Part shown: in pieces, positions 1 to 37,230 of the stretch
How the letters are laid out: each line of letters begins with the position of its first letter
How positions within the stretch are numbered: position 1 is the stretch's first letter
Origin: a virus
Strand: one strand, 5' to 3'
DNA length: 37,230 nucleotides
IMG/VR virus record: IMGVR_UViG_3300033552_000032
Location: 1-37,230 of that record
The notes under the pieces: model-generated
What the model saw: only the letters and a program-made list of their open reading frames with translations
What the model was told of the DNA's origin: nothing
Databases searched by the model: none
Translations under genes and position numbers: made by a program

Positions 1-352
1 CATCAAGGAACCATCAATAGAACCAAAGAAGAAGAAAGAGCCAGCTACGCAGGCCTTTATTTTTCCTGAATGGATTAATAAAAAACATTGGGATGCATGG
101 CATTCATGCGCCAAACGGAAAAACGCTAGCGACCAACAAAAACAACTTGCCGTTGACAAACTGGATAGTTGGAGGCTGGCGGGAATTGACCATGCCGCAG
201 CGCTTGAAAACGCGGCGATTGGTGGATGGCAAGGTCTTTTTGAGCCTGAGAAAAAGACTGCACCAAAAACAGCAGCAAGCAATACGAGTAAATACGCCGG
301 GGCTGCAAAAGCCATTTGGGGCGACAACGAATCAAGGACTATCAATGCTTAA
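1..352 (+). CDS. O-like replication initiator, C-terminal part
   Basis: This frame is open from base 2 and ends with TAA at 350-352, giving 116 residues. It has no start inside the window. Joined to the fragment at the right edge (36962-37230), which leaves two unused bases, the frame continues without a stop and yields a protein of about 206 residues. The first part is a lysine/proline-rich linker (IKEPSIEPKKKKEP). It is followed by an aromatic segment (FIFPEWINKKHWDAW) typical of the C-terminal portion of phage O-type initiators. That region is expected to contact the P-like helicase loader encoded next. The downstream gene starts inside the stop region (ATGCTTAA), so the two are probably translationally coupled. 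The length is short for the family, and bases may be missing at the junction. Confidence 0.8.
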   Translation, partial: IKEPSIEPKKKKEPATQAFIFPEWINKKHWDAWHSCAKRKNASDQQKQLAVDKLDSWRLAGIDHAAALENAAIGGWQGLFEPEKKTAPKTAASNTSKYAGAAKAIWGDNESRTINA

Positions 353-899
353 ACTTATTTCTCCTAGTCTGGAACAGTTTAAACCGCAGCCAGCCGAAAC
401 GTCAAATGACACGGCCAACAACGTGTTTAAAGTCTTTCACGGCTTTTATGGCAACTTGTTTTTGTCGAAGTTTGTCAACGGGCAAATGGACGCTGAAGGC
501 GTTGACCAAGGTGTTGTAAGCGCACGCGGTATCTGGTCGTATGGCTTGCGTGACTTTGACTTGTCAACGGTTAAAACAGCCCTTGCCCGCACGATGGACG
601 CGCACCCTGAGTACCCGCCCACCCTTCCGCAATTCGTGGCCTTGTGCAAAGCGTGTGCGCCGCGCCAGGTGTATCAGCATCAAGCGCCAGCCATTTCAAT
701 GAGCGCAGAGCTACGGGCTGAAAGATCAAAAGCAGCGCGTGAGCTGGCATTAAAAAATAGCCTTGCTGAAAAGCAAGACCCGCCAGTTGGCCTGCAAGTT
801 TTAAAGCTGCTGATTGCTGAGGCCGTGGGATTGGCTGGTGGTGACGAAGCGCGGGAACTGATGCGCCTTGACCGTGCATATCCCGGAGTGCCAGCATGA
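345..899 (+). CDS. P-like replication protein (helicase loader)
   Basis: The ATG at 345 is chosen because AAGGA lies six bases upstream and the start overlaps the stop of the O-like gene. The same frame is open further upstream, but that stretch belongs to the O-like gene. The 184-residue product has a central segment with YPPTLPQFVALCKAC at residues 83-97. This is the pattern of phage replication protein P-like proteins, which bring the host replicative helicase to the initiator-bound origin. No ATPase motif is visible, unlike DnaC-type loaders. The pairing with the O-like gene is the lambda arrangement and supports the assignment. Its stop (TGA 897-899) overlaps the next start. Confidence 0.75.
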   Translation: MLKLISPSLEQFKPQPAETSNDTANNVFKVFHGFYGNLFLSKFVNGQMDAEGVDQGVVSARGIWSYGLRDFDLSTVKTALARTMDAHPEYPPTLPQFVALCKACAPRQVYQHQAPAISMSAELRAERSKAARELALKNSLAEKQDPPVGLQVLKLLIAEAVGLAGGDEARELMRLDRAYPGVPA

Positions 900-5025: not shown

Positions 5026-5313
5026 ATGACAACACAATTTAAAAAAGGCAAAGAAAGCGGCCCAGGCAGACCCAAAGGAACGCCCAACAAAGCTACAGCG
5101 CAGCTTAAAGACATGATTCTGACCGCGTTAAGCAACGCAGGCGGGGCTGAATACTTAGAGCGCAGGGCTAACGACCCCAGAACAGCAGCGGCGTTCCTAG
5201 GGCTTGTAGGTAAGGTTCTGCCCATGACTGTTGTTGGTGATGCTGAAAACCCGTTAAGAGCCATTGTAAGAATTGAGCGCGTCATTGTCCGTACTACAGA
5301 TACGAACGGCTGA
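5026..5313 (+). CDS. Terminase small subunit
   Basis: The 95-residue product opens with a basic, glycine-rich segment (FKKGKESGPGRPKGTPNKAT) of the kind found at the start of small terminase-like DNA-binding proteins. A helical part with LERRANDPRTAAAFLGLVG follows. Small terminase oligomers recognise the packaging site and present DNA to the large subunit. The assignment rests on this basic motif and on the overlap of 41 bases with the large subunit gene. It is shorter than P22 gp3. No strong ribosome site precedes the ATG. Confidence 0.75.
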   Translation: MTTQFKKGKESGPGRPKGTPNKATAQLKDMILTALSNAGGAEYLERRANDPRTAAAFLGLVGKVLPMTVVGDAENPLRAIVRIERVIVRTTDTNG

Positions 5314-6511
5314 GGTTTTTGAGCCGCTGCTAAATCCAGCACGCTATAAAGGCATACACGGCGGGCGCGGCTCAGGCAAGTCGCACTTTTTTGCTGAGGA
5401 CTTGATTGAATGGCAGATACGCGAAAAGGTTGACGCGGTTTGTTTGCGTGAGGTTCAAAAGTCGTTAAAGTTTTCAGTTAAAAAACTGCTTGAAAGCAAG
5501 ATCAGCGGCATGAATGCTGGGGCGTACTTTGAAGTACAAAACGAGCAAATAAAAAGCGTTAACGGCGGCGTAACGATCTTCCAGGGGATGCAAGATCACA
5601 CCAGCGATAGCATTAAATCACTGGAGGGTTTTAAGGTGGCCTGGTTCGAGGAAGCGCAATCGGCCAGCCAGCGCAGTTTAGACCTGTTGCGGCCAACGAT
5701 ACGCGCACCGGGCAGTCAGTTATGGTTTAGCTGGAATCCCGGCAAAGCGACAGACCCGATTGATATGCTGCTACGCGGTGCAACGCCGCCGCCTGATGCA
5801 ATTGTTGTCGAGGCTAACTACAAAGATAACCCTTGGCTGCCGCCTGAGTTGCTTGAGGAAATGGAATATGACAAACGCCGCGACCCTGACAAATATGCAT
5901 GGGTTTGGCTTGGCAAGTACCAAAAGAACAGCAACGCACGGGTATTTACAAACTGGAAGATTGAAGAGTTTGAACGACCGCCAGGAACAATTCACCGATT
6001 AGGCGCTGATTGGGGTTTTAGCGTAGACCCAAGCGTTTTAGTTCGTTGCGACATTGAAGGCAACCGCTTGTATGTTGACTACGAAGCGCACGCAATAGGC
6101 TGCGAGATTGTCAATCTACCCGAATTGTTTATGTCTGTGCCTGAAGCTGAGAAATGGCCGATAACCGCAGACAGCGCACGGCCTGAAACCATCAGCCACA
6201 TGCAAAAAAACGGCTTTCCAAAGATTCGCAGTGCTATCAAAGGCGCTAAGAGTTTGGAGGAGGGCGTGGAGTTCTTGAAATCGTTTGACATTGTTGTGCA
6301 TCCGCGTTGCACACACCTGATAGATGAACTCACGCTGTACAGCTACAAAACAGACCCGCTAACAGCCGCTGTCTTACCGATATTGGCAGACAAAGATAAC
6401 CACTTGATCGACGCGCTTAGATACGCCTGCGAAGGGGCGCGGCGTGCCAAGAAACCCAAACCAGAAACTGAGCAAACTTATTATGAACCTTCAAACTGGA
6501 TGGCGGCTTAA
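5273..6511 (+). CDS. Terminase large subunit
   Basis: The 412-residue protein is the DNA-packaging motor with ATPase and headful or end-cutting nuclease domains. Walker A is GGRGSGKS at residues 30-37 and Walker B is VAWFEE at 122-127. A coupling-motif-like segment, WFSWNPG, lies at 151-157. The nuclease domain shows GADWGFS (D246), TADSARPE (D300) and DKDNHLIDALRYA (D374/D380), the acidic triad of the RNase H-like fold. No ATG is available before the conserved TAEVFEPLL segment, so it must start at TTG 5273 or TTG 5285, inside the small subunit gene. This implies translational coupling. Confidence 0.95.
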   Translation: MSASLSVLQIRTAEVFEPLLNPARYKGIHGGRGSGKSHFFAEDLIEWQIREKVDAVCLREVQKSLKFSVKKLLESKISGMNAGAYFEVQNEQIKSVNGGVTIFQGMQDHTSDSIKSLEGFKVAWFEEAQSASQRSLDLLRPTIRAPGSQLWFSWNPGKATDPIDMLLRGATPPPDAIVVEANYKDNPWLPPELLEEMEYDKRRDPDKYAWVWLGKYQKNSNARVFTNWKIEEFERPPGTIHRLGADWGFSVDPSVLVRCDIEGNRLYVDYEAHAIGCEIVNLPELFMSVPEAEKWPITADSARPETISHMQKNGFPKIRSAIKGAKSLEEGVEFLKSFDIVVHPRCTHLIDELTLYSYKTDPLTAAVLPILADKDNHLIDALRYACEGARRAKKPKPETEQTYYEPSNWMAA

Positions 6512-6514
6512 CTA

Positions 6515-8734
6515 ATGGCTCGCCAGGATAAGCACCAACGCGCTAAGGAGCGTTACAGCGATGCGTCTGATGCTATGAAGGAGCAGCACGCCCGGATGTT
6601 GGAGGATTTGAAGTTTAGCAACCCGGCAGACCCGCAGCAATGGCCTGAAGAAGCCAAGAAAGCACGTAACAACCGCCCATGTTTGACGTTTGATAGGACT
6701 AACCAGTTCTTGCAACAAGTCGTCAACGATGCACGGCAAAACAAGCCTGCGATTAAATGTTTGCCCGCTGATTCTGGCGCTGATATTGGCGTGGCTACAA
6801 AGCTGGACGGCATCATCCGGCACATTGAATACGTGAGCCGTGCAGGTATTGCCTACGACTGCGCTATTGACCATGCCGCACGTGTAGGCCTTGGCTGGCT
6901 TCGCGTTGTGCCTGAAGTCATCCGGCCTGAGACCAATGACCAAGAGATTCGCATTATGCGGATACATGACCCGCTGTCCGTGATGCTTGATGCGGATAGC
7001 ACACAGCCGGACGGCTCTGATGCGACGTATGGTTTTGTTGAAACGCTGATGAGCGCCAAGGCGTTTGAAGCGGCTTATCCAAAAGCCACAGCTGTATCAA
7101 TGGATGGCGGCAAATGGTCAGGTATTGACGGCGTGAAGTTGTGCGAGTATTTTGAAGTTATCAAGAAGCAGGAAAACCGCATTGTCGTCAGTCTTGAAGG
7201 CCAGCAGATGCTGATGACCGAGGACGAATACTGGCAAGCCTGCGCGCAAGTAGGGTTCAAAATCCCGACAGAATCAACAGCGATGGTTGAAACCCGTAAA
7301 GTGATCTGGCAAAAGATGACCGGCGCGGAGATTTTGGAAGAGACTGATTTTCCCAGCCAATACATCCCCTTAGTTCCTGTTATTGGCGATGAGATTTGGG
7401 TAGAGGGCAAGCGCTATTTGTGCGGCATGGTTCGTAAACAAATGGATTCGCAACGCTTTCATAACTACACCATCAGTCAGTTAGCAGAAACCATTGCACT
7501 ACAGCCTAAAGCGCCGTTCATAGCGCCTAAAGAAGCGATTGAAGGCAATGAACAGGCATGGCGCAATGCTAACAACGGCACAGCGTCTTACCTGCCTTAT
7601 AACAGCGTAGACAGCGACGGTAATCCGATACCAAGGCCTGAGCGTCAACAACCGCCTGCAATGTCGCAAGGCTGGGCTGAATTGCTGCAATATTCCAACA
7701 ACGCTATGGAATCCGCTATTGGTATGTTCAAAGCCAATTTAGGACAGCAGGGCAATGAAACATCAGGGCGGGCTATTCGTGCGCGGCAAATGGAAGGCGA
7801 TACCGCTAACTTTCATTACGTGGACAACATGAGCCGTTCGATTGAACAGCTTGGCCGAATCATTGTCGATATGATTCCGCGCGTCATCACAACCCGCACG
7901 CAGTCGCGCATTCTGGGTGAGGATGGCAAGCAGGATTTTGTACAGATTGACCCGGCCATGAAACAAGCCGTGAGGAAAGATCAGACCGGCAAAGTTATCG
8001 CTATTAATCCCGGCGTGGGTAACTACGATGTGCGCGTAAACGCCGGGCCAAGTTACACCAGCGTCAGGGAAGAAGCGGCGCAAAACATTGTTGACATATC
8101 GCAGGGTAACCCGCAGTTAGGCGCGGCACTTGCCCCCATGTTGATGAAGATGCGCGACATGCCTGAAGGCGATAAGGCCTACAAAGTCGCTCTGGCTTTG
8201 TTACCGCCTAACGTGCAATCCGCTTATGAGGACGAGGAAGGCGAACAGCTATCGCCCGAGCATCAGGCCAAGATGCAACAAATGCAGCAACAGCTAGAAC
8301 AAGCCATGCAAGCGCTTGAAAATGCCGGTAACGAGGTAGACAAGCTGGAAGCAGCGCAAGCTGACAAACAACAAGAGTTTGAGCTGAAAGCGCGTGAGAT
8401 AGCGGTAAAAGAGTTTGAAGCTGAAACAAAACGCCATGAGTGCGAAAAGCAAGAGCCTGAGCAATATCAGCCACCACCAGGCGAAGACCCTGAGTTGATA
8501 AAACTGCAAATTGCGCGTGAGAAAAACGAATCAACCGAGCGCCTAAAAATAATGGAGCTTGAAGCGCAGCAAATGCAGCACACACAGCATGACACAGCGC
8601 CTGAGCGTGATGATTCGCTGCAACTGACGATAGAGGCACTACAACAAATGGTAAGCACTATGCAAGCCCCTAAGCGCGTGGTTTATGACGATGCAGGCCG
8701 GGTTGCTGGCGTTGAAACAATACAAGGCGAATAA
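6515..8734 (+). CDS. P22-type portal protein
   Basis: The 739-residue length is close to the 725 of P22 gp1. The N-terminal region has NNRPCLTFDRTNQFLQQVVN and then ARVGLGWLRVVPEV, both characteristic of the P22 portal family. After the body, a region from about residue 585 to 690 is rich in Q, E and A (QQQLEQAMQALENAGNEVDK), predicted as long helix or coiled coil. This matches the helical barrel of the P22 portal. Twelve copies form the ring through which DNA enters and to which the tail attaches. The gene starts three bases after the terminase stop. Confidence 0.95.
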   Translation: MARQDKHQRAKERYSDASDAMKEQHARMLEDLKFSNPADPQQWPEEAKKARNNRPCLTFDRTNQFLQQVVNDARQNKPAIKCLPADSGADIGVATKLDGIIRHIEYVSRAGIAYDCAIDHAARVGLGWLRVVPEVIRPETNDQEIRIMRIHDPLSVMLDADSTQPDGSDATYGFVETLMSAKAFEAAYPKATAVSMDGGKWSGIDGVKLCEYFEVIKKQENRIVVSLEGQQMLMTEDEYWQACAQVGFKIPTESTAMVETRKVIWQKMTGAEILEETDFPSQYIPLVPVIGDEIWVEGKRYLCGMVRKQMDSQRFHNYTISQLAETIALQPKAPFIAPKEAIEGNEQAWRNANNGTASYLPYNSVDSDGNPIPRPERQQPPAMSQGWAELLQYSNNAMESAIGMFKANLGQQGNETSGRAIRARQMEGDTANFHYVDNMSRSIEQLGRIIVDMIPRVITTRTQSRILGEDGKQDFVQIDPAMKQAVRKDQTGKVIAINPGVGNYDVRVNAGPSYTSVREEAAQNIVDISQGNPQLGAALAPMLMKMRDMPEGDKAYKVALALLPPNVQSAYEDEEGEQLSPEHQAKMQQMQQQLEQAMQALENAGNEVDKLEAAQADKQQEFELKAREIAVKEFEAETKRHECEKQEPEQYQPPPGEDPELIKLQIAREKNESTERLKIMELEAQQMQHTQHDTAPERDDSLQLTIEALQQMVSTMQAPKRVVYDDAGRVAGVETIQGE

Positions 8735-11389: not shown

Positions 11390-12619
11390 ATGCCAATTTC
11401 AGTATCCCTCCAGGCGATGATCGCCGCAGAATCCGCAGCCGTTATCGAGGAAAGCTGCCCGTTCTTGATGAACATTAACCGTGACCGTGAAAAGGAGTTT
11501 GATAAGTCGCCCAACGGCTTCAAAATCGGCTCTACTGTCACTGTCAACATCCCCGGCATTGGTAGCGTCTTTGATGGCGCTACGTTGTGGGGTGGTGGCG
11601 CGGCTGAGGTGTTCACAGAAACCCAGCGCTCGCTCTCGATTACCAGCCATAAGCATACGGCGATTAACGTCACCGCTGCTGAGGCCGTGTTCCGTCTTGA
11701 CGCAAGCGACCCACGCCGCAAAGATTACCGTGACCGCGTATTGAAGCCGCAATTGTCCAGCCTTTGCTCTGCGATTGAAGCCGATTTGTTGCTGCAAGCC
11801 GTGCGTACTGTTCCGTTTGTTGTCGGCACACCAGGCACTGTGCCTAGTTCATTCCGCACATACAACGAAGCACGCGCAAAAATGGCGAATGCACTCGCAC
11901 CAAGCGACCCGCGTTGGGTGCTGTATTCGCCTGATGCTAATGTGTCATTGGTGGATGCTGGTAAGGGCTTGTTTAACCCTACGGCTGATATTGCAAAACA
12001 GTTCCGTGATTCTTACATCGGGCGTGCGGCCAATGCTGAATGGATGGAAGCCGTCAATCTGCCTACGCTGACAAACGGCAACAAAGTAACGGGCGTGACG
12101 GTATCGGGCGCGGGTCAGTCCGGCACTAGCTTGCTGGTTGCTGGTGTGGCCGCTGCTGATACGTTCACGGTGGGTCAGGTGTTCGCTATTGCTGGTGTAT
12201 TCCAAGTTCACCCGCTGACCGGCACACCACTAACAGCATTGCAACAGTTCACTGTTACCGCTGCTGTTACCAGTGCAGGTTTGACGACTACCTTGAGCAT
12301 TTTCCCGGCCATGACTGCGGTAATGCCTAACAAAACCGTTAGCGCCTTGCCTGCTACTGGTGCTGCTTTGGTGTTTGTTGGTGCGGCCTCTACTGCCTAT
12401 CGTCAAAACTTGATGTGGCAGCGGGATGCGTTTACAGCAGCCTTTGTACCGCCTCCTATCGTGGCGGGTGCTGAGGGTTACAACCTGTCCAGCAATGGCC
12501 TGCGGTTGTCTGTGCAAACCGGCGGATCTATCACCGATTTGTCATCTACCACCCGTGTAGACGTGCTGTATGGCTTTGCAGCTATTCGCCCGATGCACGC
12601 CTGCCGTGTGACTGAGTAA
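11390..12619 (+). CDS. P22-type major coat protein
   Basis: The 409-residue protein matches the P22 gp5 plan. The key match is LPTLTNGNKVTGVTVSGAG at about residues 224-242, which closely parallels LPVLTKSTATGVTVSGA in gp5, and the preceding YRD/FRDSYIGR region also agrees. Downstream of it lies an insertion-like beta domain (residues 240-330) that corresponds to the I-domain. The fold is expected to be HK97-like, with hundreds of copies per head. A strong terminator follows immediately, so the coat transcript likely ends here in part. Confidence 0.92.
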   Translation: MPISVSLQAMIAAESAAVIEESCPFLMNINRDREKEFDKSPNGFKIGSTVTVNIPGIGSVFDGATLWGGGAAEVFTETQRSLSITSHKHTAINVTAAEAVFRLDASDPRRKDYRDRVLKPQLSSLCSAIEADLLLQAVRTVPFVVGTPGTVPSSFRTYNEARAKMANALAPSDPRWVLYSPDANVSLVDAGKGLFNPTADIAKQFRDSYIGRAANAEWMEAVNLPTLTNGNKVTGVTVSGAGQSGTSLLVAGVAAADTFTVGQVFAIAGVFQVHPLTGTPLTALQQFTVTAAVTSAGLTTTLSIFPAMTAVMPNKTVSALPATGAALVFVGAASTAYRQNLMWQRDAFTAAFVPPPIVAGAEGYNLSSNGLRLSVQTGGSITDLSSTTRVDVLYGFAAIRPMHACRVTE

Positions 12620-12692: not shown

Positions 12693-14756
12693 ATGGAAAA
12701 GTATTTCAACAACGTCACCAATCAATCCGGCGATGTCATCATCGGGGCGCTGGTATCAGTGACCAAAGCCGATGGCACGCCTGCGGTAATTTACGCGGTA
12801 GACGGCGGCCCGGTTGTAGCTAACCCGTTGATAAGCGGTGTCAATGGCTTGTTTTCGTTTTACGCTGCTGATGGTGTTTACACGATAACTATTTCAGGCC
12901 GGGGTATTACGACATTCACGATTACAGACATAAAGTTGTCTGACTTTAATTCGGTCAGCCTTGCGGCATCTAGTGGCGCTGCGCTGGTGGGTAATAACGG
13001 TGAGACGGTAGCCCAATCTTTTAACGCATTGCAGCTTTCCGACTATGCAGCTTTACGGGCGTACACCGGCCCGCGTAAAAGCATTTACGTTACAGGCTAC
13101 ATGGCTTCAGCAGCGCCGTCAGGAACGGCAGGGGTGTTTGTTAGAGATGATTCAGACACGACCAGCGCCGACAATGGCGGCACAACGTTGATTGCAGGAA
13201 GTGTGCGTTGGAAACGACAATTTGACAGCTCTGTCAATGTGCAGTGGTTTGGGGCCAAAGGCGATGGCATTACAAACGACACGGCGGCATTCCAAGCCTG
13301 CATCAACTATGTGTTTACGCGCAAAAACACAGCTAGTCTTAATCAGCTGGGGGGCGTGGTCTGGGTTCCGACTGGACGCTACAAAGTTACCCAGACGTTA
13401 ACTAATTTTACTGACGGCATGGTCATACGTGGCGAACCTTCAGGTTTAAATTCTGTCCCATTAGCACAAGTCGGGACAGGGGCACAAATATTTTGCGACA
13501 GCACAGTTGCTGGTTTTCCAATGTTCACGGTCAATGACGGTGGCCCCGTCACTATTCAGGATATTGCGCTCAACGGGACGCAAACAGTTACGAACAGCAG
13601 TTGCATTAGAACAGGCGATGGCGTTACTAATATTGGTATAACCCAAGCACATTTTAGTAATGTGCGGTTTACTGGATTTAGTTCTGTTTTTATCGGATCA
13701 AAGCTGGCTGATGCGACTTTTTATGATTGCGGTTTTGAATACAACACCACATGTTTTAATTTAACGGGCGGCACACATACTTCTCTTGGCGGGATTAAAT
13801 TTGTTGGGTGCATATTTTTTGGCGGCGCGGATGCGGTTTTTACGCTAGCTGGCGGCGCGGCTTTGCATGACGTTAATTTTTCAGCTTGTATATTTCAAAA
13901 TGACCCGGCGCAAGTAGCTGCGTGCGACATTTTTAAGGTGTATGCCGCGTCTTTCAGAGACGCAACGTTTGCAAGTTGCAGTTTTATTGGGGCTGTTGGC
14001 GATTACTGCTTACGCTCATTGTCAGCAAGTAGCGAATTTAAAAGGATTACATTTGCCGCCTGTAATTTTAAAGTTACAGATGTAATTCAAATGCCATTCC
14101 AAACGCCAATTGGCGCGACCAAGAATATTATTCTGACGGGCTGCATCTTACAAGACAGTAAGATCACCTCCAGCTTTGAGTTGACAGATTTAACCATTAA
14201 TTCTTGCGCCGTTACTGGCGCATCCGTTATTAATTTAACGTCCTGCCACAACCTGCAAATTACGGGCAACAACTTTTTTAATGCTACGGCTGCAGCCCCG
14301 GTGGTTTTGACTGATGTGTTTAACCGGGTGCAAATTACTGCAAACATTTTTGCTGATGCAGTGGGTTCAATTCCAATTAATAGCGGCAGTACAAAAGTAA
14401 ATATTAACAATAACATCGGCGTTATTCCTAATGTGTCCGTTATTTTTACAACCATTACAGCGGGTTCTGGCGGTTGGACTAATCACGCTATTGCCCCGCA
14501 GGTACACCGCGACAATTCTAGTTTTTGTAGTCTCCGGGGGCTGGTCACAAATGCCGCGCCCGGAGCATATTCGATTATGGGGGCGCTCCCATTGGGCTTC
14601 AGACCAGCCATCAATCAGATTTTTATATTGCCAGAAAGCTCTGGAACTGGTTCCGCTATTACTGAAATTGCAACGAACGGCGACATTTATTTTGTTTCCC
14701 GAACGGGTACAGGAAGCAATTACGACTTGTCGGCCTTGCGTTTTTATGGTGCATAA
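12693..14756 (+). CDS. Tailspike with pectate-lyase-type beta helix
   Basis: The 687-residue protein starts with a small beta domain (residues 1-85), which probably attaches to the virion. Residues 184-201 contain WFGAKGDGITNDTAAF, the signature of the pectate-lyase-3 superfamily entry strand. Further on, repeated short strands with stacked asparagines and aromatics (for example KINNN-like turns, NITGNNFF) indicate a right-handed parallel beta helix to about residue 590. A separate C-terminal domain closes the trimer. Such proteins bind and cut host surface polysaccharide. The specific residues cannot be assigned. The AAAAGG upstream supports the start. Confidence 0.85.
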   Translation: MEKYFNNVTNQSGDVIIGALVSVTKADGTPAVIYAVDGGPVVANPLISGVNGLFSFYAADGVYTITISGRGITTFTITDIKLSDFNSVSLAASSGAALVGNNGETVAQSFNALQLSDYAALRAYTGPRKSIYVTGYMASAAPSGTAGVFVRDDSDTTSADNGGTTLIAGSVRWKRQFDSSVNVQWFGAKGDGITNDTAAFQACINYVFTRKNTASLNQLGGVVWVPTGRYKVTQTLTNFTDGMVIRGEPSGLNSVPLAQVGTGAQIFCDSTVAGFPMFTVNDGGPVTIQDIALNGTQTVTNSSCIRTGDGVTNIGITQAHFSNVRFTGFSSVFIGSKLADATFYDCGFEYNTTCFNLTGGTHTSLGGIKFVGCIFFGGADAVFTLAGGAALHDVNFSACIFQNDPAQVAACDIFKVYAASFRDATFASCSFIGAVGDYCLRSLSASSEFKRITFAACNFKVTDVIQMPFQTPIGATKNIILTGCILQDSKITSSFELTDLTINSCAVTGASVINLTSCHNLQITGNNFFNATAAAPVVLTDVFNRVQITANIFADAVGSIPINSGSTKVNINNNIGVIPNVSVIFTTITAGSGGWTNHAIAPQVHRDNSSFCSLRGLVTNAAPGAYSIMGALPLGFRPAINQIFILPESSGTGSAITEIATNGDIYFVSRTGTGSNYDLSALRFYGA

Positions 14757-28487: not shown

Positions 28488-29477
28488 ATGCCAGCGCCAC
28501 GCAAAACGACAAAAGGCACATGGGCAATTCAGATTGACATTGCAGGGCAGCGGCCAAGCTCGACACATGCTACCAAAAGCGCGGCAATTGCATGGGCGGC
28601 TGCAAAAACCTTAGAGCTAAAGCTACAGGCCAGCGGCCAAGCAGGAACGGTTAAAACGCTAGGTGATGCGCTCAAACGCTATGCCCTTGAGGTATCGCCT
28701 GGGCATCGTGGTTGGCGCTGGGAAATAATCAGGCTGGCGGCTTATCAAAAACCGGGTAGTGCGTTACCTGTACACACCAGACTGTCAGACCTGACAACGG
28801 CGCATATGTCGGCATGGCGTGATGCGCGACTATTGGCGACTTCACGCGGCACGGTACTGCGGGATATTGGCCTACTATCAGCCGTGTTTCAAGTTGCACG
28901 GCTGGAGTGGAATTGGCTGCAGGTCAACCCACTGACCAACATGCGTAAACCCAGCGCACCAGCACATCGGGACGTACTTATAACGGGCCTACAGACGCGC
29001 AAAATACTTCGGGCGTTAGGTTATACCTCTGAGCCGATAAAGTCTGTCAGCCAGGCCGTGGCAGTGTGCTTTTTAACCGCACTGGCAACAGGCATGAGGT
29101 CAGGCGAATTGTGCGGCCTAACGTGGGCGAATGTGTACCCCACTTATTGCGTCTTACCAATGACAAAAAACGGGCAGCGGCGGGATGTGCCACTATCTAA
29201 AGTAGCTATCCGCTTGATTGAACGGATGCGCGGCTTTGACCCTGAATTAGTTTTTGGCTTGGGTGTGCAAACAAAGGATTCGCTATTCAGACGCGCCCGT
29301 GCTCGTGCGGGATTGTCGGGGCTAACTTTTCACGATACACGCCATAGTGCAGCCACGCGCATGGCTCCTATGGTTGACGTGCTTACTTTGTGCAAAATAT
29401 TTGGCTGGTCTAATACTTCGCAAGCACTCACATACTTTAATCCAGCCGCGGCTGACATTGCCAAACGGTTAGGTTAA
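28488..29477 (+). CDS. int: Tyrosine-recombinase integrase
   Basis: The 329-residue product has an N-terminal beta-rich arm domain (TWAIQIDIAG), a core-binding helical domain (about 55-150) and the catalytic domain. ATGMRSGELCGLTW carries R204. K227 may be the lysine, HDTRHSAATRMA gives H282 and R285, W307 lies in FGWSNTSQ, and Y316 in LTYFNP is the nucleophile. The order is complete, so the enzyme should be active in integration and excision at attP. The gene is convergent to the left operon, whose last gene stops nine bases away. Confidence 0.93.
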   Translation: MPAPRKTTKGTWAIQIDIAGQRPSSTHATKSAAIAWAAAKTLELKLQASGQAGTVKTLGDALKRYALEVSPGHRGWRWEIIRLAAYQKPGSALPVHTRLSDLTTAHMSAWRDARLLATSRGTVLRDIGLLSAVFQVARLEWNWLQVNPLTNMRKPSAPAHRDVLITGLQTRKILRALGYTSEPIKSVSQAVAVCFLTALATGMRSGELCGLTWANVYPTYCVLPMTKNGQRRDVPLSKVAIRLIERMRGFDPELVFGLGVQTKDSLFRRARARAGLSGLTFHDTRHSAATRMAPMVDVLTLCKIFGWSNTSQALTYFNPAAADIAKRLG

Positions 29478-31812: not shown

Positions 31813-32322
31813 CTATTTCACGACGAGACGCTGCGATTGAACTAGCTTTGCGCCTTGTATTTCAATGCCTGCTTTCAATGCCGCTTTCAATGCCGTTTTA
31901 TCTGGCACGGGCGGCGGGGTTTCTGGCTGGCGCATGTACTGGCTGGCGATTAATCCCGGCTCATAAATGTCAACGCTTGGCGGGTTGTTCTGGGTGCTGA
32001 TTTTGAATAATGGCGATTCAATTTTGCTGATGCCGCACGTTTGCATATTGGTCAACAAATACTGATACAGCGCAGCCTCTTTTTTTACCAAGCTGTCAGC
32101 CAAGGCATTCATACGAGCCGCCTCTTGACGTAGCGCCGGGACGTTTACCACCATGCCACGCCCGACCATGAGAATGCCCACGGCCTTATCAGTAATGTCG
32201 TCTACAAGGCCGCTAGCCTCCAAGGTGTCAGCTACACACCCCGCGTCTAAATCAAGGTCAGCAAGGCTGCTTAAAAGCTGCTGATACTGCCCAGTCAGTT
32301 GATATAAAGCTACGCTAGTCAT
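31813..32322 (-). CDS. Siphovirus Gp157-like protein
   Basis: The ATG at 32322 has GGAGG six bases before it. The 169-residue product starts with ALYQLTGQYQQLLSSLADLD, a helix as in the Gp157 family, and the middle has NALADSLVKKEAALYQYLLT. The end, beta-rich, includes ESPLFKISTQNNPPSVDIYE. In streptococcal phages the family was linked to phage-resistance phenotypes, but its biochemical role is not settled. It stands next to the SSB-like gene, an arrangement seen in many phages. Confidence 0.88.
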   Translation of the reverse strand: MTSVALYQLTGQYQQLLSSLADLDLDAGCVADTLEASGLVDDITDKAVGILMVGRGMVVNVPALRQEAARMNALADSLVKKEAALYQYLLTNMQTCGISKIESPLFKISTQNNPPSVDIYEPGLIASQYMRQPETPPPVPDKTALKAALKAGIEIQGAKLVQSQRLVVK

Positions 32323-32479
32323 TTTGCCTCCAATTTGCAAGCGCCTTCAATAGCGCCTGCGGTTTAATCTTTGTTGTCCTGGTGCTTGGGCCACGCTTAA
32401 TTTGCTGTTTAGCGCGGCCCTTTGCAATCGCAGCTATGCCGCTTGGCGTTTTTGCGTAGGCGGCGTAGTCGCGTGCCAT
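32315..32479 (-). CDS. Small basic protein, 54 aa
   Basis: The frame starts at an ATG on the complement of 32477-32479, and overlaps the Gp157 start by eight bases. The product begins MARDYAAYAKTPSGIAAIAK, then GRAKQQIKRGPSTRTTKIKP. It is strongly basic, so nucleic-acid binding is plausible. It fills the gap between the SSB-like and Gp157-like genes. There is no clear ribosome site. Confidence 0.55.
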   Translation of the reverse strand: MARDYAAYAKTPSGIAAIAKGRAKQQIKRGPSTRTTKIKPQALLKALANWRQND

Positions 32480-35026: not shown

Positions 35027-35713
35027 TTAAAACGATTTGCTTTCCCACACCTTCAAAACTTTGGCAAGCACTTCAAAGTCCATATCTGGCTTGATTGTCC
35101 AGTCTCGATATTTGGTGTTTTCGCTGATGACAAGTACGCCTTCACCGGGGATGCGTTGTAGGCGTTTAATAAACCCTTCGTCGCCCACCCTGAAAAAGTA
35201 CACACCGTCAAAATTGCAAGTTGTTACGCCGCGGTCTACCAGCAGCGGATCGCCTGGATTGAACATGCCCAGCATTGAATCACCAAAGCCCGTGACGATA
35301 CATAAATTGCTTGCTCCAGTGTGATGCTTAACATTAACGCGCAACCACTCATGATCGACTGCCCAGCTCTTAATCATGCCTGGTTGATCTACAAGTCGTA
35401 AACCATTTCCCATACTGCTACCTGTATCAAATTGCTTGATTACTACATCGTTACTATTTTTTACGATTTTAAGGTGGGGCACATCAAAATAGCCCTCTGG
35501 TTTTCCCGTTCTCTCTTCTAATCTTTTCACGGCCTTGTCGCGTAAAGCTCGGTATCCAGAAAACCATTGATTGACTTGCGCCATGCGAATTTCTGTTTTT
35601 TCTTCAAACCGTGATGCGCTGCCGCCGTAGTCGGCGTCAATAAGTGATTCGAGCGTATCCAGCCGCATCTGAACGATGGGGTCTATGGGTGAGGATGCTC
35701 TAGGTTTTTTCAC
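35027..35713 (-). CDS. CI-type repressor with S24 peptidase fold
   Basis: The 228-residue protein has an N-terminal helix-turn-helix (about residues 20-75, with SASRFEEKTEIRMAQVNQWF), a linker and a LexA/S24 domain. GDSML gives catalytic Ser146 and FIKRL Lys183. A segment GSSMGNGL at 98-105 fits a repressor subgroup. I see no Ala-Gly cleavage pair there, so RecA-driven self-cleavage is uncertain. The start is GTG without a ribosome site. A TAAAGT box lies six bases before it, as in the leaderless lambda repressor mRNA. It faces the Cro-like gene. Confidence 0.92.
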   Translation of the reverse strand: MKKPRASSPIDPIVQMRLDTLESLIDADYGGSASRFEEKTEIRMAQVNQWFSGYRALRDKAVKRLEERTGKPEGYFDVPHLKIVKNSNDVVIKQFDTGSSMGNGLRLVDQPGMIKSWAVDHEWLRVNVKHHTGASNLCIVTGFGDSMLGMFNPGDPLLVDRGVTTCNFDGVYFFRVGDEGFIKRLQRIPGEGVLVISENTKYRDWTIKPDMDFEVLAKVLKVWESKSF

Positions 35714-35778: not shown

Positions 35779-36051
35779 ATGCAATTAAAAGCCTACATCC
35801 AATCTACACGCGGCAATGCAACAGCACTCGCTGAAGCACTTGAAATTCCGCTGTCTTACCTCTCGCAGATGTCCAGCGGTGAGCGTGCCATCACCCCACA
35901 ACGCGCATCTGCAATTGAGTTGTACACCAAAAAGGCCGTCACTAGGCAAGAAATGTTGCCTAACGACTGGCAGGCCATCTGGCCCGAGCTGGCTCCAAAG
36001 TTGTTTGCCCGTCCTGGCGGTCGTTTTGTTGAAGACGAACGGAAGGCTTAA
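35779..36051 (+). CDS. YdaS/Cro-like repressor
   Basis: The 90-residue product has MQLKAYIQSTRGNATALAEA, then IPLSYLSQMSSGERAITPQR, a helix-turn-helix. QEMLPNDWQAIWPELAPKLF is the ending that marks YdaS-type Cro relatives. It would occupy the operators and shift the switch to lytic growth. GAGAGAG upstream is its ribosome site. It begins the rightward early operon. Confidence 0.88.
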   Translation: MQLKAYIQSTRGNATALAEALEIPLSYLSQMSSGERAITPQRASAIELYTKKAVTRQEMLPNDWQAIWPELAPKLFARPGGRFVEDERKA

Positions 36052-36961: not shown

Positions 36962-37230
36962 ATGAGTATTGCACTCATGACACTTGCATGGAAGTCTGAC
37001 ATTCAGTCAGGCCGAAAAATGGTTTTACTTGCACTTTGCGACAACGCCAACGACCAAGGCGAGTGCTATCCATCCGTATCAATGGTGGCTAAAAAATGCA
37101 GTATGAGCGAGCGCAGTGTTTTTAATCACATTGCAGAGTTAGAGAAAAGCGGAGCAATTCAACGTCAAAACAGGACTGGCCGCAGCACCATTTATCACCT
37201 TGACCCCTGCAAATTCTGCACCCCTGCAAA
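36962..37230 (+). CDS. O-like replication initiator, N-terminal part
   Basis: The ATG at 36962 opens a frame that runs to the right edge. Its 89 residues form a winged helix (MSIALMTLAWKSDIQSGRKM, then MVAKKCSMSERSVFNHIAEL). This is the helix-turn-helix-36-type DNA-binding region of O-like initiators, which bind origin iterons usually located within the gene itself. The last part reads CKFCTPA and lies on a tandem DNA repeat. Two bases remain (AA), and with the first base of the window the codon becomes AAC, after which the frame continues to 352. Confidence 0.85.
   Translation, partial: MSIALMTLAWKSDIQSGRKMVLLALCDNANDQGECYPSVSMVAKKCSMSERSVFNHIAELEKSGAIQRQNRTGRSTIYHLDPCKFCTPA
37203..37230 (+). 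repeat. Tandem iteron-like repeat at the right edge
   Basis: ACCCCTGCAAATTCTGC (37203-37219) is followed at once by a second copy, ACCCCTGCAAA, cut off by the window end. The unit is 17 bases, so it shifts frame with each copy. Iterons of this kind within an O-like gene mark a replication origin. The unit count cannot be seen because the sequence stops there. Confidence 0.65.

Follow-up and report, generated by a model that had tools for sequence, protein, structure and literature searches.

The window, a virus record of 37,230 bases, most probably (probability about 0.87) represents a temperate P22/Sf6-like phage genome that is nearly complete and either circular or circularly permuted, recorded as a linear contig that is broken in a presumed iteron origin inside the gene for an O-like replication initiator. 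The ends of the record carry the two halves of this gene, which argues that the genome is circular or circularly permuted, a reading that is well supported by comparison with homologous loci. Most of the repeat array present in relatives is missing from the joint, and the record thus appears to be nearly complete rather than complete, while an exact closure of its ends is not supported.

An O-like initiator gene divided between the ends

The two parts of the gene are located as follows.

36962..37230, + strand: winged-helix N-terminal half (HTH_36) of the O-like initiator, with the beginning of the linker; identified by searches of Pfam and PHROG with the joined protein; matches 48 of 54 loci
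1..352, + strand: C-terminal half of the O-like gene, base 1 being the third base of a codon; identified by alignment of the C-half; matches 20 of 54 loci

The frame that opens with the ATG at position 36962 leaves the bases AA at position 37230, and the codon is filled by base 1 (C). When 36962-37230 is joined to 1-352, a single open frame of 206 codons is obtained, which ends with a TAA at 350-352. The in-frame joint described in the first-pass annotation of this DNA was thereby reproduced exactly. Its estimate that one joint in three would keep the frame holds given that both ends are already open, but random joins within the window were about equally open on both sides in 1,637 of 20,000 cases (8%), and the open frame across the ends is, taken alone, weak evidence. 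No terminal direct repeat was found, the longest word shared by the last and the first 1.5 kb being 11 nt.

The joined protein matches PHROG 391, “replication initiation O-like” (4e-23), as well as PHROG 8540, and Pfam HTH_36 (1e-12, above the cut-off), which corresponds to an N-terminal winged-helix DNA-binding domain. The PHROG 391 and HTH_36 matches bear out the proposed identity as an O-like initiator. Scans with the joined protein yielded 54 loci, 50 of which are viral and four bacterial (Herbaspirillum, Collimonas, Massilia, and a Sulfurovum MAG). When the halves were searched separately, the N-half matched 48 and the C-half 20 of these loci; both were found in order within one ORF at 14 loci, including the near duplicates L002/L003 and L022/L052, and at no locus in different ORFs. 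The P and NinG proteins, used as wrong-partner controls, never occurred in the same ORF as the N-half at the 54 loci, and at most of the other loci the C-terminal domain is of another kind. L031, the best individual homologue, is 69% and 59% identical to the two halves. The halves are thus collinear with the 14 single-ORF homologues, and the suggestion that they form one gene was upheld.

An alignment search with the C-half gave 20 loci; at eight of these the N-half belongs to the same ORF, and at ten a P-like gene follows the C-half. None of the 20 starts as the window does, although L150 starts a few codons ahead of its array, and the C-half was without match among phage records. Some of the remaining loci have N-terminal parts unlike the N-half of the window; a C-terminal domain of the window type lies behind such parts in L032, L033, L036, L038, L142, L147, and L152-L156. 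The C-terminal domain thus appears, from these alignments, to be exchanged between modular initiators. In L031 (2055-3119), there is an in-frame insert of about 90 residues in the O linker, just ahead of the iterons. A reading of this insert as a GIY-YIG domain, suggested by its motif, was not supported by Pfam, which reports nothing there.

The iteron array at the joint

In the relatives, the central part of O consists of a proline-rich linker, rich in TPAxxAP, that is encoded by an iteron array, commonly of six units. The borders of a putative array of this kind are seen at the two ends of the window.

37203..37219, + strand: iteron 1, 17 nt, a direct repeat and the first unit of the presumed origin array; 37202-37230 is identical to the array start in L002
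37220..37230, + strand: first 11 nt of iteron 2, by repeat comparison with L002; the window ends inside the array
1..16, + strand: 3' border of the iteron array, starting about 5 nt past the array end; identical to the 16 bases at this array border in L004 and L015

The last 29 bases of the window are identical to the start of the L002 array, and the window holds no more of the array than iteron 1 and a piece of iteron 2, so that of the spacing only the first 17 is represented. A basic linker had been placed at the join; the joint falls instead in the proline-rich, iteron-encoded linker (TPAN), and a basic KKKK stretch follows about eight residues after it in the joined protein.

We measured the linker length as the distance in residues from an anchor in the N-half to an anchor in the C-half. 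The 109 loci gave 57 distinct linkers, with 15 loci that lacked the anchors being dropped. The distance is 20 residues in the joined protein of the window, compared to 53 in 22 of the distinct linkers, 54 in eight, 32 to 146 in 26 others, and 17 in L046. In other words, 56 of 57 linkers are longer than the joined one, and 30 of 57 are 33-34 residues longer. Because the borders in the window match the array borders in the relatives, the missing part should begin inside iteron 2 and end about 5 nt beyond the array. If the array has the commonest form, about 99 nt would be missing between the ends, an estimate that has to be read against the range of 32 to 146 residues in the relatives. The complete O protein is then predicted to have about 239 residues and the genome a size of about 37.33 kb. 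The chance that a random cut would fall in an array of about 117 nt is 0.3%.

A circularly closed or permuted genome of about 37.2 kb, with ends that join directly in a protein of 206 residues, had been proposed at first. The circular or permuted genome is retained (the halves share one ORF at 14 of 54 loci and are in different ORFs at none), but the direct closure and the 206-residue protein are not supported, since the record has no terminal repeat and lacks about 99 nt in comparison with the commonest linker. As evidence against the proposal, a full-length homologue with a middle part unlike the join had been named. Such a mismatch exists in part, in the form of about 33 extra residues located exactly at the join, and these count against the 206-residue protein and the exact closure but not against circularity.

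It is accordingly improbable, although better placed than the other alternatives, that the ends adjoin exactly and that the phage truly has a short O linker with less than two iterons. The direct join is in frame, and L046 (3001-3380) provides an example of an O gene with almost no iteron array within a contig. However, this is the sole linker shorter than that of the window, and its two halves are in different frames, which may reflect either an assembly collapse or a real deletion. Furthermore, the unwinding of the lambda origin requires at least two iterons and an AT-rich tract, as stated in a passage of one study (PMC7466680). A relative that combines the C-half type of the window with an N-half of high identity and an ordinary array was not found, and the best candidate, L031, carries the linker insert. 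Still less probable is that the assembler closed the contig by an end overlap and that both copies were later trimmed, in which case the 99 nt would represent the trimmed end repeat. This would be compatible with a circle, and the commonest deficit of 99 nt is close to an assembler word length, but it leaves unexplained both the cut flush with the array (0.3% by chance) and the breaks at the same place in other records, which have different gaps.

Under the preferred reading, the contig break falls in what would be the replication origin, an iteron array inside the O gene, as in lambda. O would consist of a winged-helix domain, an iteron-encoded proline-rich linker, and a C-terminal domain, and by analogy it would bind the iterons that its own gene contains and bring in the replication machinery via the P-like protein; host proteins would take part with P in the start of replication, as in lambda. 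The lambda origin has four iterons inside the O gene, and those of the Stx phages have six, according to part of the same source (PMC7466680). The window would resemble these phages in that a presumed origin array is located in the middle of the initiator gene, adjoined by a candidate P-like gene and early regulators, and its relatives commonly have six iterons, but the iteron sequences differ, and the array of the window is truncated and its iterons putative. Each of the phages lambda, P22, and L has iterons of its own within the initiator gene, as described in a section of another study (PMC8022706), and this is what the relatives show here. Gene 18 of P22 and phage L is similar in that it, too, is the initiator gene of a P22-like phage and contains phage-specific iterons in its coding sequence.

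The starts of the iterons are spaced 17-17-22-23-22 in 12 of the 57 linkers, and 22-23-22 is contained in 20, although these positions were obtained with a simple pattern and can shift by a base. For the 12 arrays with the exact 17-17-22-23-22 spacing, the identity of the iteron cores was 0.81 within a phage versus 0.47 between phages. The cores are thus alike within a phage and unlike between phages, while the spacing recurs (L002, L005, L014, L016, and others), which suggests that O and its iterons may co-evolve under a fixed geometry.

Gene order across the joint

Phage genes are present throughout the window, in agreement with the full set of phage modules noted previously. The following genes were identified.

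345..899, + strand: P-like gene directly behind O, candidate helicase loader, without a Pfam or PHROG match; relatives of 26-49% identity behind the C-half at 10 of 20 loci
1673-2251, + strand: conserved gene, function not named (PHROG 12600, 5e-74); 58-60% identical genes behind O in L009 and L024
2230..2835, + strand: NinG / Rap junction endonuclease (PHROG 171, 6e-61)
5273..6511, + strand: terminase large subunit (Terminase_3, 2e-32; PDB 4idh “Gene 2 protein”, 1e-40)
6515..8734, + strand: P22-like portal protein (P22_portal, 5e-161; PDB 7sfs “Gene 3 protein”, 4e-50; PDB 3lj5 portal, 7e-27)
11390..12619, + strand: P22-type coat protein (P22_CoatProtein, 2e-21)
12693-14756, + strand: tailspike / EPS-depolymerase-like protein, between the coat and head-adaptor genes (PHROG 4250, 1e-17)
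28488..29477, + strand: integrase, interior to the record (Phage_integrase, 5e-18; PHROG 1)
31813-32340, - strand: gene to which two libraries give different names (PHROG 253, Mu Gam-like end protection, 4e-40; Pfam Sipho_Gp157, 3e-37)
35027..35713, - strand: CI-like repressor with S24 peptidase domain (Peptidase_S24, 2e-15; PHROG 4)
35779..36051, + strand: YdaS/Cro-like regulator, first gene of the rightward early operon (YdaS_toxin, 8e-9; PHROG 35, “transcriptional repressor”)

The “Gene 2” and “Gene 3” proteins among the PDB matches are presumably those of Sf6. The P22-type portal and coat proteins, together with the matching terminase, a repressor, and an integrase, are features of a temperate P22/Sf6-like podovirus. 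Across the joint, the order of the genes is CI-like repressor (- strand), YdaS/Cro-like regulator (+ strand), small early genes, O, P-like gene, NinG, terminase, portal, coat, tail and lysis genes, and integrase. This is the order of a lambdoid circle.

The packaging genes point, by analogy, to headful packaging with permuted virion DNA. Since the portal, coat, and terminase are P22-like, the virion DNA would be expected to be permuted and terminally redundant, as is the DNA of phage L according to an excerpt on that phage (PMC8022706). The window differs from P22 and phage L in that no close sequence relative of it was found, either with positions 1-25000 by megablast or with the C-half among phage records. 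The megablast search against 50,697 phage records gave no match, and a search with exact patterns gave no near-identical records, in a set from which records very near the window's own may be absent. Portal relatives in viral contigs were at best 33% identical and thus too distant for a comparison of whole-genome order.

The same joint would be expected from a circle, a concatemer, permuted virion DNA, or a tandem prophage, between which the sequence does not distinguish here. An integrated single prophage should instead have been cut at an attachment site near the integrase, not in O, and there are phage genes on both sides of the integrase. The least probable alternative is that the record is a linear fragment or a chimera, with pieces of two separate O-like genes at its ends by coincidence: 8% of random joins are about equally open, and the apparent exchange of C-terminal domains between phages could make either half foreign, but the halves complement each other in the right order and are flush with the borders of the array, and the lambdoid gene order is restored across the joint.

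Other records broken at the array

Among 76 records found by an alignment search with the N-half, 17 have their downstream end within 3.2 kb of the O start, and three of these ends are located 295-369 nt after that start, in or just past the array, where a uniform spread would give about 0.8 of 17. This enrichment is suggestive only, as two of the three records (G001 and G002) are from closely related phages. The third, G003 (the IMG/VR record behind L035, 80,082 bp), carries the N-half of O at one of its ends and the C-half at the opposite one, with an open joined frame and a 16-nt iteron stretch in common between the ends. One end of G001 (the IMG/VR record behind L047, 33,850 bp) is in the array, while the other matches its relative L043 from 952 nt past the O start onward with 93% identity, so that about 650 nt are missing between its ends as judged against L043. 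No such continuation was found in the 800 bases of the other end of G002 (20,464 bp) that were compared with L043. G003 and G001 resemble the window in having one end in the O iteron array and the other resuming behind it, but they represent other phages with other C-terminal domains. We found no paper on assembly breaks at O iterons in a literature search. The recurrent break at iteron origins is the useful result, whereas the phage itself is ordinary.

Terminal repeats are a common criterion for calling a viral contig complete, and a nearly complete circular genome here reads as linear, probably because of its repetitive presumed origin. If the ends were simply joined, the initiator would be recorded as too short and its origin as crippled. 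Examination of contig ends for the N-half and C-half of O could recover more circular lambdoid genomes, with two more already among the 76 records. The assembly may have stopped at the array owing to short repeats, to variants of the array within the population, or to poor coverage. We tentatively consider that the number or sequence of the units may vary in the sampled population, so that the assembly stops at both borders, but regard this as rather unlikely. If true, the iteron arrays of O genes would be fast-changing loci in which the geometry is kept while the cores change together within each phage.
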